From NCBI RefSeq assembly GCF_003004785.1, contig NZ_PVZS01000014.1, forward strand, positions 1 to 64,000: 64,000 nucleotides of DNA, given 5' to 3'. The position numbers were made by a program, and so were the translations under genes. The notes beneath the pieces were generated by a model. It made no database searches. It worked only from the letters and a program-made list of their open reading frames with translations, and was not told the DNA's origin. Source of the DNA: Alsobacter soli (GTDB taxonomy: Bacteria > Pseudomonadota > Alphaproteobacteria > Rhizobiales > Beijerinckiaceae). Every line of letters starts with the position of its first letter. Positions within the stretch are counted from its first letter, which is position 1. Shown here one piece after another: positions 2,114-62,779 of the stretch.

Positions 2114-2595
2114 CGTCATCCCCGGGACTTTCCCGCGGATTGACGCGGGCGGCGGGGCGTGGATGGCCGGGACAAGCCCGGCCATGACGGGAGAGGTTCT
2201 TCGCCGTGTTCGTCGTCCCTGCGATTGTCGAGGGATCCACGCGGTCGGCGCGGGCGCGGATGGCCGGGACAAGCCCGGCCATGACGGAGAGAGGTTCTTC
2301 GCCGTGTTCGTCATCCCCAGGCTTGTCCCGGGGATCCACGCGGTCGGCGTGGGCGTGGATGGCCGGGACGAGCCGGCCATGACGGAGAGAGATCGAGTGC
2401 GGTTTGCGCCGTCATCCCCGGCCGGAGCCGCGGAGCGGCGGAGGGGAAGGGGATCCAGGGGCAACCTGGCGCCCCCTCTTCGGTGACGAGAGCCCGGCAG
2501 GCCCCCGCGCTGTCCTGCAAGGGCGGAACCGGGCAAGCCCGGCGCGGGCGGCCCTGGATCCCCTTCCCGGCGCTTCGCGCCGCCGGGGATGACGG
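2114..2595. repeat. Intergenic palindromic repeats: three type A units plus one type B pair
   Basis: The 600-base gap between fliE and fliQ contains no gene. Type A units sit at 2114-2190, 2211-2287 and 2309-2385. Each has a left half (CGTCATCCCCGGGCTTGTCC-like) and a right half (GGCCGGGACAAGCCCGGCC, then ATGACGG) that pair with each other and also fold individually as 7-bp-stem hairpins. 2410-2595 is a type B pair: CCCCGGCCGGAGCCGCGGAG at one end, and CCCTTCCCGGCGCTTCGCGC at the other end, closed by CGGGGATGACGG. Short open frames inside are spurious. Confidence 0.9.
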
Positions 2596-7444: not shown

Positions 7445-7528
7445 GGCGGCGCACGCCCTCCCCGCGCGGGGCGAAGGTGGCGCGAACTCCCGGGCCGCGC
7501 CCGTAACGCTTTCATGCTTCCCCTCCAC

Positions 7529-8728
7529 CGTCATCCCCGGGCTCGTCCCGGGGATCCACGCCTTCGGGCAGGACATGGATGGCCGGGACGAGCCCGGGGA
7601 TGACGGCGGCGGCAGGTCCATGCGAGATCCGCGCCGAAGTTCCGTGCGAGTTTCATGCAATCCCGCCACCGTCATCCCCGGGCTCGTCCCGGGGATTTAC
7701 GCCCTGGGGGCAGGGCGTGGATGGCCGGGACAAGCCCGGCCATGACGGCGGCGGCAGGTCTATACGAGATCCGCGCCGAAGTTCCGTGCGAGTTTCATGC
7801 AATCCCGCCACCGTCATCCCCGGGCCCGTCCCGGGGATTTACGCCCTGTGGGCAGGGCGTGGATGGCCGGGACAAGCCCGGCCATGACGGCGGCGGCAGG
7901 TCGATACGAGATCCGCGCCGAAGTTCCGTGCCGGCTCCATGCAATTCCCCCGTCATCCCTGGGCTCGTCCCGGGGATCCACGCCCTCGGGCAGTGCGTGG
8001 GTGGCCGGGACAAGCCCGGCCATGACGGCGGCGGCAGGTCGATACGAGATCCGCGCCGAAGTTCCGTGCGAGTTTCATGCAATCCCGCCACCGTCATCCC
8101 CGGGCTCGTCCCGGGGATTTACGCCCTGTGGGCAGGGCGTGGATGGCCGGGACAAGCCCGGCCATGACGGCGGCGGCAGGTCTATACGAGATCCGCGCCG
8201 AAGTTCCGTGCCGGCTCCATGCAATTCCCCCGTCATCCCTGGGCTCGTCCCGGGGATCCACGCCCTCGGGCAGTGCGTGGGTGGCCGGGACAAGCCCGGC
8301 CATGACGGCGGCGGCAGGTCGATACGAGATCCGCGCCGAAGTTCCGTGCCGGCTCCATGCAATTCCCCCGTCATCCCTGGGCTCGTCCCGGGGATCCACG
8401 CCCTCGGGCAGTGCGTGGGTGGCCGGGACAAGCCCGGCCATGACGGCGGCGGCAGGTCGATACGAGATCCGCGCCGAAGTTCCGTGCCGGCTCCATGCAA
8501 TTCCCCCGTCATCCCTGGGCTCGTCCCGGGGATCCACGCCCTCGGGCAGTGCGTGGGTGGCCGGGACAAGCCCGGCCATGACGGCGGCGGCAGGTCGATA
8601 CGAGATCCGCGCCGAAGTTCCGTGCGGGCTTCATGCAATCCCGCCACCGTCATCCCCGGGCTTGTCCCGGGGATCCACGCCCTGGGGCAGTGCGTGGATC
8701 CCCGGGACAAGCCCGGCCATGACGGGCT
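7529..8728. repeat. Tandem array of nine type A palindromic units between cckA and recA
   Basis: Units begin with CGTCATCC at 7529, 7670, 7812, 7951, 8092, 8231, 8369, 8507 and 8648, giving periods of 138-142 bases. Each holds the A palindrome (two hairpin halves) and a conserved spacer that includes GAGATCCGCGCCGAAGTTCC. Two subtypes are interleaved: units 2, 3 and 5 have GGGGATTTACGCC and TTTCATGCAATCCC at their edges; units 4, 6, 7 and 8 have CATCCCTGGG and CTCCATGCAATTCC. The first and last units carry hybrid halves. No gene lies in 7445-8911. Confidence 0.95.
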
Positions 8729-16981: not shown

Positions 16982-17803
16982 TCACGCCGACGCGCGCCAG
17001 AGCGCGTCCAGGGTGCGGATGGCGTCCACGTGGGCCTTCACGTCGTGGGCGCGGATGATGTCCGCGCCGCCCGCCACGGCGGCGGCGTGGGCGGCGAGGG
17101 TGCCGAAGAGGCGGTCCTTGGGGGCGATGTCCTCACCGAGGACGCGGCGCAGGAACGATTTGCGCGAGGCGCCGACGAGCACGCGGAAGCCGAAGGCCTT
17201 CAGCTCCGCGACCCGGCGCAGGGCGTCCATGTTCTGCTCCCAGCTTTTGCCGAAGCCGATGCCGGGATCCAGCACCAGACGGTCCTCGCGCAGGCCGGCC
17301 GCCTGGGCGAGGGCGATCGTGCGATCGAAGAAGCGGCGGAACTCGTCGATGATGTCCAGGGAGGCGTCGATCGACTCGCGGTTGTGCATGGCCACCACGT
17401 CACAGTCGTGGTCCGCGGCCACGCGGGCCATCTCGGGGTCGCGCTGCAGGCCCCAGACGTCGTTGATGATCCGGGCGCCCGCGGCGAGAGCCTTGCGGGC
17501 CGTGTCTGCCCGGTAGCTGTCGATGGAGATCGGGACGGGCAGGGACGGGGCCAGCGCCTCGATCACGGGCAGCACGCGGCGCTGCTCCTCCTCCGGGCCG
17601 ACGGGCTGGTGGCCGGGGCGGGTGGATTCGCCCCCGAGGTCGACGATGTCGGCGCCCTCGGCCGCCAGCTGCTGGGCGTGGCGGATCGCGACGGCGGGAT
17701 CGAAGAAGTCGCCGCCGTCCGAGAAGGAGTCCGGCGTGACGTTGACGATGCCCATGATGAGGGTGCGGCCGGGGCGTCGGGCCGGGGCGGCGGGGGTCGG
17801 CAT
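16982..17803 (-). CDS. folP: Dihydropteroate synthase
   Basis: This 273-residue enzyme condenses p-aminobenzoate with 6-hydroxymethyl-dihydropterin pyrophosphate; it is the sulfonamide target. The pterin-binding motif MGIVNVTPDSFSDGG lies at about residues 17-31. DLGGESTRPGHQPV is the second signature loop, followed by ISIDSYRADTARKAL. LDPGIGFGKSWEQN and GASRKSFLRR complete the TIM-barrel motifs. It is divergent from trmJ across a 140-base gap and starts the folate gene group. Confidence 0.97.
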   Translation of the reverse strand: MPTPAAPARRPGRTLIMGIVNVTPDSFSDGGDFFDPAVAIRHAQQLAAEGADIVDLGGESTRPGHQPVGPEEEQRRVLPVIEALAPSLPVPISIDSYRADTARKALAAGARIINDVWGLQRDPEMARVAADHDCDVVAMHNRESIDASLDIIDEFRRFFDRTIALAQAAGLREDRLVLDPGIGFGKSWEQNMDALRRVAELKAFGFRVLVGASRKSFLRRVLGEDIAPKDRLFGTLAAHAAAVAGGADIIRAHDVKAHVDAIRTLDALWRASA

Positions 17804-17943
17804 GGCTGTCCCAAGTGGCGTTCGGGCGGCTGCTTATCGGCTCAATCGGCGTTCCTGTCGAGAAGGACGCGCAAAACGGGCTCCCCTGAGGGCGTCCTCA
17901 TCCTGTAAAGGCTTGCCTCGCCTGCCGCTGACGAGACCCCGAC

Positions 17944-18786
17944 ATGCCCGGAGCCGGAACCGACCACACCCGCCAAGCCCTCTCGGGCGGGCCCGCCATC
18001 ATCCTGGTGGAGCCGCAGCTCGGCGAGAACATCGGCATGGCGGCCCGCGCCATGGCGAATTTCGGCCTGTCCGAGATGCGCATCGTCCGGCCGCGCGAGC
18101 GCTGGCTGAACCAGAAGACCCGCGCGGCGGCCGCGGGGGCGGAGTTCCTGCTGGACCAGGCGCAGGTGTTCGGGTCCCTGCAGGAGGCCGTCGCCGACCT
18201 CCATTTCACCTACGCCACCACGGCCCGCGAGCGCGGGCAGGGCAAGGAGGTGGTGGGACCGGCGCAGGCCGGGCCGGTCCTGCGCGGGCGCGTGGCGGAC
18301 GGGCAAAAGGTCGGAATCATCTTTGGGCGGGAGCGCACCGGTCTCGAGAACGACGACATCGCGCTCGCGGACGCGATCCTCACTTATCCGGTGAACCCGG
18401 GCTACGCGTCTCTCAACCTGGCCCAGGCCGTGCTGCTGGCGGGCTACGCCTGGATGGCGGGCGCGGAGGCGCCGCTGCCGTTCGAGCGCAAGGAGAAGTG
18501 GGGTCCGGCCTCGCGCGACATGCTGCTCAGCTTCTTCGAGTACCTGGAGGACCAGCTCGAGGAGCGCGGCTTCTTCCGCCCCGCCCACAAGCGGCCGGTG
18601 ATGAGCCGCAACCTGCGCAACATCTTCCACCGCATGCAGCTCTCCGAGCAGGACGTCCGGACGCTCCGCGGCATGGTAGTGCGCCTGGTGGAAGGCCCGC
18701 GCGAGCCGCAGACGAAAAAGCGCCGCGGCCCGAAGCAGACGCCGAAGGGGACGAAGCCGGGCACACCCGAGGCGCGGGGGGAATAG
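17944..18786 (+). CDS. trmJ: TrmJ-family (SpoU class) tRNA/rRNA 2'-O-methyltransferase
   Basis: This 280-residue SPOUT methyltransferase uses AdoMet and most likely methylates the 2'-OH of tRNA position 32. The three SPOUT motifs are PQLGENIGMAARAMANFGL (about residues 22-40), IIFGRERTGLENDDI (about 122-136) and NPGYASLNLAQAVLL (about 150-164). The C-terminal 30 residues are Lys/Arg/Pro-rich, which would suit RNA contact. The length and order fit TrmJ; another SpoU specificity cannot be excluded. It is divergent from folP and followed by repeats. Confidence 0.88.
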   Translation: MPGAGTDHTRQALSGGPAIILVEPQLGENIGMAARAMANFGLSEMRIVRPRERWLNQKTRAAAAGAEFLLDQAQVFGSLQEAVADLHFTYATTARERGQGKEVVGPAQAGPVLRGRVADGQKVGIIFGRERTGLENDDIALADAILTYPVNPGYASLNLAQAVLLAGYAWMAGAEAPLPFERKEKWGPASRDMLLSFFEYLEDQLEERGFFRPAHKRPVMSRNLRNIFHRMQLSEQDVRTLRGMVVRLVEGPREPQTKKRRGPKQTPKGTKPGTPEARGE

Positions 18787-18848
18787 GGCGGCGCGGACGC
18801 AGGTCCCGGACCCCGGGAAAGTTCATGCTTCGGCATTCCGCTCTCAGC

Positions 18849-19032
18849 CGTCATCCCCGGCCGGAGCGCCGAAGGCGCGGAGGGTGAAGGGGATCCAGGG
18901 CGGCGCGCGGCGTGCTCCCCCGCTGCTACCTTCAAACGCTCGCGTCGGGGTGACCCGGTTCACGGCCGAATTTTTGGATCAGCCCCCTGGATCCCCTTCC
19001 CGGCCTGCTGCGCAGGCCGCCGGGGATGACGG
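18849..19032. repeat. Type B palindromic repeat after trmJ
   Basis: The left end is TCATCCCCGGCCGGAGCGCC and the right end is CCCCTTCCCGGCCTGCTGCG, closed by CGGGGATGACGG. They are inverted relative to each other around about 90 unconserved bases. Confidence 0.85.
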
Positions 19033-19070
19033 TGGAGAGGTGGCAGGCTGGCGTCTGAAAGGCTTTCGCC

Positions 19071-19517
19071 CGTCATCCCCGGGCTTGTCCCGGGGATCCA
19101 CGCGGAGCGGCCGGGCGCGGACGGCCGGGACCAGCCCGGCCATGACGGAGAGATTCGGCGCCGGACATTTTGGGGCGCCGGGAGGCTTTCGCCCGTCATC
19201 CCCGGGCTTGTCCCGGGGATCCACGCGGGACGGCCGGGCGTGGATGGCCGGGACAAGCCCGGCCATGACGGAGAGAATCGGCGCCGGACATTTTGGGGCG
19301 CCCGGAGGCTTTCGCCCGTCATCCCCGGGCTTGTGCCGGGGATCCACGCGGGACGGCCGGGCGTGGATGGCCGGGACAAGCCCGGCCATGACGGAGAGAA
19401 TCGGCGCCGGACATTTTGGGGCGCCCGGAGGCTTTCGCCCGTCATCCCCGGGCTTGTCCCGGGGATCCACGCGGAGCGGCCGGGCGCGGATGGCCGGGAC
19501 CAGCCCGGCCATGACGG
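19071..19517. repeat. Exact 123-bp tandem array of four type A units upstream of murI
   Basis: CGTCATCCCCGGGCTTGT begins at 19071, 19194, 19317 and 19440, a period of exactly 123 bases each time. The spacers share GCGCCGGACATTTTGGGGCG and GGAGGCTTTCGCC. The third unit has one change in the hairpin loop (TTGTGCC for TTGTCCC). The spacer differs from that of the array at 7529-8728, so the two arrays arose independently from the same palindrome. There is no gene between 18787 and 19588. Confidence 0.95.
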
Positions 19518-19642
19518 AGAGGGGCACGCTGGAGGGTCTCGTTACCGCCCGTTAACGCGCGCCGGTTGTACTGGCTTCACCAACGAGCGTGGGCGCCATG
19601 CGGGTCGATCTTTGGGCGGGAATTCAGTATCACGGCGTCGCC

Positions 19643-53215: not shown

Positions 53216-53283
53216 TCACAGCTGAAGGGGCGTCAACCGCCGTTGGAGAGTTCGGAGACAGCCTGCGCCAGCGCCTTGCCTCT

Positions 53284-53659
53284 GTCATCCCCGGGCTTGT
53301 CCCGGGGATCCACGCGGGCGGCGGAGGCGTGGATGGCCGGGACACGCCCGGTCATGACGGGGAGGTCAGTGTGTAGGGAGCGGCCATGGCTTGCGACTTC
53401 CGCCGTCATCCCCGGGCTTATCCCGGGGATCCACGCGGGCGGCGGAGGCGTGGATGGCCGGGACGAGCCCGGCCATGACGAGAGGGAGGGCGCAGACATT
53501 ACTGGCGTCGCTCCGCCGTCATCCCCGGCCGGAGCCGCGCAGCGGCGGAGGGGAAGGGGATCCAGGGGCGACCTGCGCCGCTCCCAGAGCGGGCCGGTGA
53601 GATCGGCGCGCGCCGTCCTGGATCCCCTTCCCGGCGCTGCGCGCCGCCGGGGATGACGG
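53284..53659. repeat. Two type A units and one type B pair before the GntR gene
   Basis: Type A units are at 53284-53360 and 53404-53480, with the first starting TGTCATCC instead of CGTCATCC. Type B lies at 53517-53659. These fill most of the 565-base gap between the deaminase and GntR genes, so the two starts are divergent yet about 565 bases apart. Confidence 0.9.
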
Positions 53660-62328: not shown

Positions 62329-62779
62329 TCGCCGTCCTGGCGAGGAGCGCAGCGACGAAGCAATCCAGGACGACGGCGCAGACTCCAGCGACGTCATGGC
62401 CGGGCTTGTCCCGGCCATCCACGGGGGCCAGCCGCGTGGATCCCCGGGACTAGCCCGGGGATGACGGAAAGGGTAGCCGTGGCGTATGCCGCCAAAGGCC
62501 TGGATTGCTTCGCTTCGCTCGCAATGACGGGGAGAACCGCGATCTGTCATCGCGAGGAGCGGAGCGACGCGGCGATCCAGGGGCGCGTTGGCGCTGGATT
62601 GCTTCGCTGCGCTCGCAATGACGGTGGAGGGGCCTGCTCCGGCGCCGCCGGGCTCGTCCCGGCCATCCGCGGGGTCCAGCCGCGTGGATCCCCGGGACTA
62701 GCCCGGGGATGACGGACATATTGGTCGTGGCGTGCGCCGCCAGAGGCCTGGATTGCTTCGCTTCGCTCGCAATGACGGT
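62329..62779. repeat. Mosaic of type C and type A repeats between coxM and coxD
   Basis: Type C arms and pairs are at 62329-62373, 62500-62529, 62546-62625 and 62746-62779. Type A units in opposite orientation (GGCCGGGCTTGTCCCGGCC first, GATCCCCGGGACTAGCCCGG second) are at 62392-62467 and about 62646-62715. The 620-base gap contains no gene; nothing else is seen until the coxD start. Confidence 0.88.

Follow-up and report, generated by a model that had tools for sequence, protein, structure and literature searches.

Tandem arrays of REPIN-like CGTC dimers in Alsobacter soli and their probable growth by local copying and unequal recombination

We analysed a window of 64,000 nucleotides of Alsobacter soli (assembly GCF_003004785.1, contig NZ_PVZS01000014.1, positions 1 to 64,000), and found at 19071 an array of four units which, judged by sequence, are REPIN-like dimers of CGTC-tagged REP elements. 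The array as a whole is probably a tandem cluster of such dimers that arose by local copying and then by unequal recombination or slippage. A census of the surroundings of these elements in the same genome showed that the tie between tandem arrays and this palindrome class is real, strong and specific.

Anatomy of the array and its surroundings

The half-A palindrome CGTCATCCCCGGGCTTGTCCCGGGGATCCACGC is present in four copies, exact or with one mismatch, whose starts are always 123 bp apart (Table 1). TRF placed the array at 19060-19521 (period 123, 3.8 copies, 96% match, 0 indels, score 840), and thus pattern matches and TRF both agree with the exact spacing given in the initial annotation. 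A different, inverted palindrome (half B), which is absent from that description, lies 13 bp after each half A. One unit, CCGTCAT...ATGACGG, is a 79-bp head-to-head heterodimer of CGTC-tagged REP elements, and its computed fold as single-strand DNA is one long hairpin (-38.5 kcal/mol, z = -7.8). The spacers are 96-100% identical to one another, and their 25-base core was found three times genome-wide at up to 3 mismatches, always in this array, which confirmed that the spacer is unlike that of the array before recA; no match to the core was found in three sister species at the same threshold. There is no N within the array. The match itself and the genome census rule out an origin by chance, and a CRISPR array was rejected on the ground that the spacers are copies of one another.

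Half A has the layout ATCCCCGGG-CTTGT-CCCGGGGAT-CCA, that is, a 9-bp stem, a 5-nt loop and a CCA tail. The CGTC tetranucleotide at one end and the AT-initiated stem define it as a CGTC-tagged REP, and by its layout, rather than by published consensus, it fits CGTC-REP families 3 and 4. CGTC-tagged REPs are an alphaproteobacterial REP superfamily that forms head-to-head heterodimers (Di Nocera et al. 2013, PMC3733652). As in REPINs, an inverted REP pair is here the dispersed unit and is able to fold into one hairpin. A search for PF01797 (Y1_Tnp, RAYT family) gave no match in the genome itself or in three sister species, with control genomes positive; we therefore name the unit REPIN-like and not REPIN, and RAYT-driven amplification was rejected.

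Upstream, the array is preceded by the end of a plus-strand ORF (17944-18786) whose translation looks like an RNA methyltransferase; the Pfam search near this ORF used an overlapping frame and says nothing on that reading. The ORF on the other side belongs to the Asp/Glu racemase family and is probably murI. At the position of the array the site is empty in sister genome G002, and the G002 regions syntenic with the other dimer loci of the window contained no short CGTC REP. Rfam gave zero matches in the window, and the closest RecA relatives are Hyphomicrobiales. Multiple open frames run through the array between 18884 and 19734; their translations are of the usual spurious kind, with motifs like VIPGLVPGIHA and AGTSPAMTE.

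Table 1 Features of the array at 19071, other dimer loci of the window, and scaffold joins of the assembly
Feature	Position	Strand	Remarks
REP half A copy 1	19071..19102	+	stem ATCCCCGGG, loop CTTGT
REP half B copy 1, inverted dimer partner	19116..19147	-	stem ATGGCCGGG
Spacer 1, 46 bp	19148..19193	.	core unique to the array
REP half A copy 2	19194..19225	+	
REP half B copy 2	19239..19270	-	
Spacer 2	19271..19316	.	identical to spacer 3
REP half A copy 3	19317..19348	+	one base changed
REP half B copy 3	19362..19393	-	
Spacer 3	19394..19439	.	
REP half A copy 4	19440..19471	+	
REP half B copy 4	19485..19516	-	variants in common with copy 1
Head-to-head pair of long-loop CGTC elements, just before the array	18847..19034	.	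about 18847-18900 and 18985-19034
Segment missing at the syntenic site of sister genome G002	18796..19538	.	743 bp here vs 14 bp in G002
Three-copy array, same dimer	2114..2391	.	
Nine-copy array, same dimer, before recA	7510..8725	.	138-142 bp units, 280-bp higher-order period
Two dimers, same orientation	53283..53480	.	44 bp apart, without shared flank
Two dimers	62392..62714	.	248 bp apart, second partly decayed
Scaffold joins	C33:14545, C33:17439, C34:173233, C12:302234, C28:48551		loci L095, L101, L119, L129

Association of tandem arrays with CGTC elements

At up to 3 mismatches the whole genome contained 90 matches to half A and 126 to half B, and the reversed patterns gave none. Dimers and arrays were counted in 788 kb of this genome fetched around the matches, a sample picked for presence of the elements and not of arrays, so that contrasts inside it are fair and its totals are not whole-genome counts. 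It held 205 CGTC monomers (reversed control, 0) and 81 head-to-head dimers, 80 of which were heterodimers, at 49 loci; the gap was 13 bp in 52 of the 81, and the census gave neither TT nor HT pairs at distances up to 40 bp.

The initial annotation had asked for tandem arrays to be counted against singletons, and had made its claim depend on an excess over expectation. In the 788 kb, 15 loci carried 2 to 8 detected dimers and 34 carried one, and 32 adjacent dimer pairs were seen against about 4.5-8.8 expected from random placement in an assumed 0.4-0.8 Mb of intergenic space; the excess is thus present. All 32 adjacent pairs had the same orientation and none the opposite, compared with 13 same and 10 opposite among distant neighbours, and orientation agreed within each of the multi-dimer loci (15/15, p = 6e-5). 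This uniform orientation indicates that most pairs are local duplications rather than independent insertions.

TRF reported 24 arrays with a period of 50 or more in the 788 kb, and 19 remained after five two-copy arrays had been dropped as scaffold joins. CGTC elements were found in 18 of these 19; they belong to the short type or to two types related to it (long-loop, and CGTCmTTGCGAG...GCAATCCAG). Among intergenic segments, which were delimited by a rough codon-usage gene caller, 17 of the 129 with CGTC elements held arrays vs none of the 294 without (p = 8e-10). The mean length of element-bearing segments is greater (80 kb in 129 vs 96 kb in 294), but this difference does not explain 18 arrays vs none. 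The assembly is a draft of 96 contigs and copy numbers may be off; with contigs ending at palindromes, arrays are probably undercounted. Contig ends within or beside palindromes were seen at the ends of C59, C42 and C14 and at the starts of C32 and C62.

Where the initial annotation had named two array sites, the window proved to contain more (Table 1). In sister genome G002, with 41 half-A matches, clusters are fewer and smaller than here (4 close pairs, none above two), and the close pairs examined again had the same orientation. Loss of SbcCD as the cause of the arrays was rejected, as no correlation was seen across genomes; SbcD is present in the genome itself and in G002, which has the small clusters, and was weakly matched in G001.

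Growth of the array and competing explanations

Self-alignment at the period showed that 11 bp of left flank (f1) and 5 bp of right flank (f2) are common to the four units, and that the other 30 spacer bases occur in neither outer flank, which is the makeup of an ordered tandem REPIN cluster (PMC3116915, Figure S7 legend). The array starts and ends with a palindrome and has no spare spacer. Spacer included, copies 2 and 3 have 1 difference in 123, and copies 1 and 4 have in common four variants that are missing in copies 2 and 3. From the array ends and the near-identity of copies 2 and 3, recombination among the palindrome copies explains growth past two copies well, and unequal exchange between direct copies with a trapped spacer fits better than flank duplication around one palindrome. 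The claim that the palindrome promotes duplication of whatever flanks it therefore held in part: the tie of arrays to this palindrome class and the 32 to 0 orientation are supported, but the spacer of this array is found solely between palindromes, against "whatever flanks".

We infer that the process began with local copying of a dimer without change of orientation, probably as the DNA replicated and through slippage of a strand or a switch of template at the hairpin, which would leave two direct copies around a trapped 46-bp spacer; literature searches found nothing direct on REP template switching. Unequal recombination or slippage between the near-identical copies would then have multiplied the dimer together with its spacer until there were four copies, presumably ending with duplication of the inner unit, now copies 2 and 3. 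The sequence supports the later multiplication well, and the first duplication and its trigger may have been as described. Arrival of the first dimer at the locus would have needed some mobilising activity. Two observations on the array complicate this scheme, and so does the coding sequence carried in the C11 unit (see below). The 11 + 5 flank bases in all copies speak against copying of the dimer only and mean that the copied piece was somewhat larger, and the four variants common to outer copies 1 and 4 are not produced by simple stepwise expansion; the outer-alike, inner-alike pattern would need an extra gene-conversion step. Two other arrays bear the marks of unequal exchange or of slippage among their copies in the form of higher-order repeats. 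The array on C24 has 8 copies of 181/182 bp in which units 3, 5 and 7 are identical, as are units 2 and 6, giving a 363-bp higher-order repeat, and the recA array has identical units 6 and 7, with unit 3 resembling 5 and unit 4 resembling 8. Either palindromic shape or plain sequence homology may be the driver.

A possible but rather doubtful alternative is that tandem duplication of neighbouring DNA is set off by the palindrome as such, the hairpin stalling the fork and the nascent strand jumping back to copy the hairpin and its flanks. Confinement of arrays to CGTC-bearing segments and the constant orientation of neighbours agree with it, as do the units on C22, C13 and C50, which have long flanks with other CGTC elements, and the C11 array (L098, C11:84013-84382), in which 2.2 copies of a 167-bp unit include 36 bp of gene start and whose counterpart in a sister species is a single dimer upstream of the same gene. 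The C11 case means that flanking DNA, coding DNA included, can be copied. However, at 19071 and in several other arrays the spacer is missing beyond the outer copies, the ends of long units elsewhere lie mostly within other CGTC elements, as repeat recombination would also give, and the two cleanest perfect cases, on C33 (293 bp) and C34 (114 bp), which first seemed to be flank-including duplications, were rejected as scaffold-overlap joins. Such joins, where 53-292 bases on the two sides of a single N overlap exactly, mimic perfect two-copy tandem duplications, and they call for caution wherever duplications of REP dimers are sought. That the assembler duplicated a repeat at 19071 as well is very improbable; five other two-copy repeats in this assembly are joins of this kind and the ends of several contigs lie in or next to arrays, but the 19071 array contains no N and its copies carry distinguishing variants.

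Independent side-by-side insertion of dimers, with little later divergence, is very improbable as a general account. The pairs at 53283 and on C32 have almost no common flank past the dimer, and unordered clusters of such a kind were described by Bertels and Rainey, so that insertion is possible for pairs without shared flanks; at 19071 it is refuted by the repeated unique spacer (96-100% identical), and the same orientation in 32/32 pairs and 15/15 loci argues against it elsewhere. It is equally hard to believe that the array is a coding or regulatory repeat kept for function, for example to terminate transcription or stabilise RNA between the racemase gene and its upstream neighbour. A position downstream of genes is common for REPs (PMC3733652), and frames are open throughout the array, the latter since its period, 123, is divisible by 3; yet several frames are open on both strands, most other array periods are not multiples of 3, the whole segment is absent in the sister species, no promoter-like site was found, and the one terminator-like match, about the chance number, lies outside the array. 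Local copying of the dimer followed by unequal recombination or slippage remains the probable history.

Relation to known REP clusters and other arrays

Alternating REP pairs in tandem, of a different REP family, make up BIME-2 of Escherichia coli. In GTAG families, REP clusters are tandemly reiterated together with flanking DNA segments (Di Nocera et al., PMC3733652), and Pseudomonas fluorescens SBW25 has 16 tandem REPIN clusters, from which a second mechanism beside transposition was inferred (Bertels and Rainey 2011, PMC3116915). The ordered SBW25 clusters resemble the present array in having near-identical inverted REP pairs in tandem, short common flanks and intervening DNA that is not repeated outside. 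The REPINs of SBW25 are of GTAG type and linked to RAYT genes, whereas the elements here are CGTC-type with Y1_Tnp not detected; a further difference is that arrays of the present genome reach 8-9 copies. With the CGTC-tagged REPs surveyed in PMC3733652 our elements share the CGTC end, the AT-initiated 9-bp stem, the 5-nt loop, the CCA tail, head-to-head heterodimers, an alphaproteobacterial host and the lack of a dedicated transposase; in that survey, however, grouped elements are rare, with Neisseria and Wolbachia as exceptions, whereas here about one third of the dimer loci hold more than one dimer. REP recombination at the joins of large tandem duplications is presented as an old finding in the citing passage of PMC11708052 (Shyamala et al. 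1990, as cited there). Tandem REP clustering itself is thus already known, and what is new is the REP class and a genome without detectable RAYT. The many clusters without a detectable RAYT gene point to a host process. We tentatively suggest that REP-dimer hairpins may be hot spots at which transposase-free host replication or repair duplicates neighbouring DNA in tandem, with the same architecture arising independently in Pseudomonas GTAG and alphaproteobacterial CGTC elements. Arrays with readable histories, such as those with higher-order repeats or an empty sister site, offer material for testing the mechanism.

Several further loci were recorded. The C11 array contains repeated 5'-end pieces of a minus-strand gene, and the copy that keeps the ribosome-binding-site-like sequence is now apart from the gene body. 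A triple on C43 of G001, spaced at 2.1-2.2 kb, was rejected as a tandem duplication, its match being confined to the dimers. Dimers of the TTGCGAG and long-loop CGTC types also form arrays (L109, C6:68742-69575; L131, C32:16369-17117 and 17489-18352; L097, C22:6037-6765), with units of 93-119 bp in up to about 9 copies for the former and of 196 bp for the latter, and both behave as the short type does. The prevailing loop and tail variant differs among species (CTTGT here, CTTGA in G002, CTTGG with ACCCACG in G001), as would be seen if every lineage had spread a palindrome version of its own.
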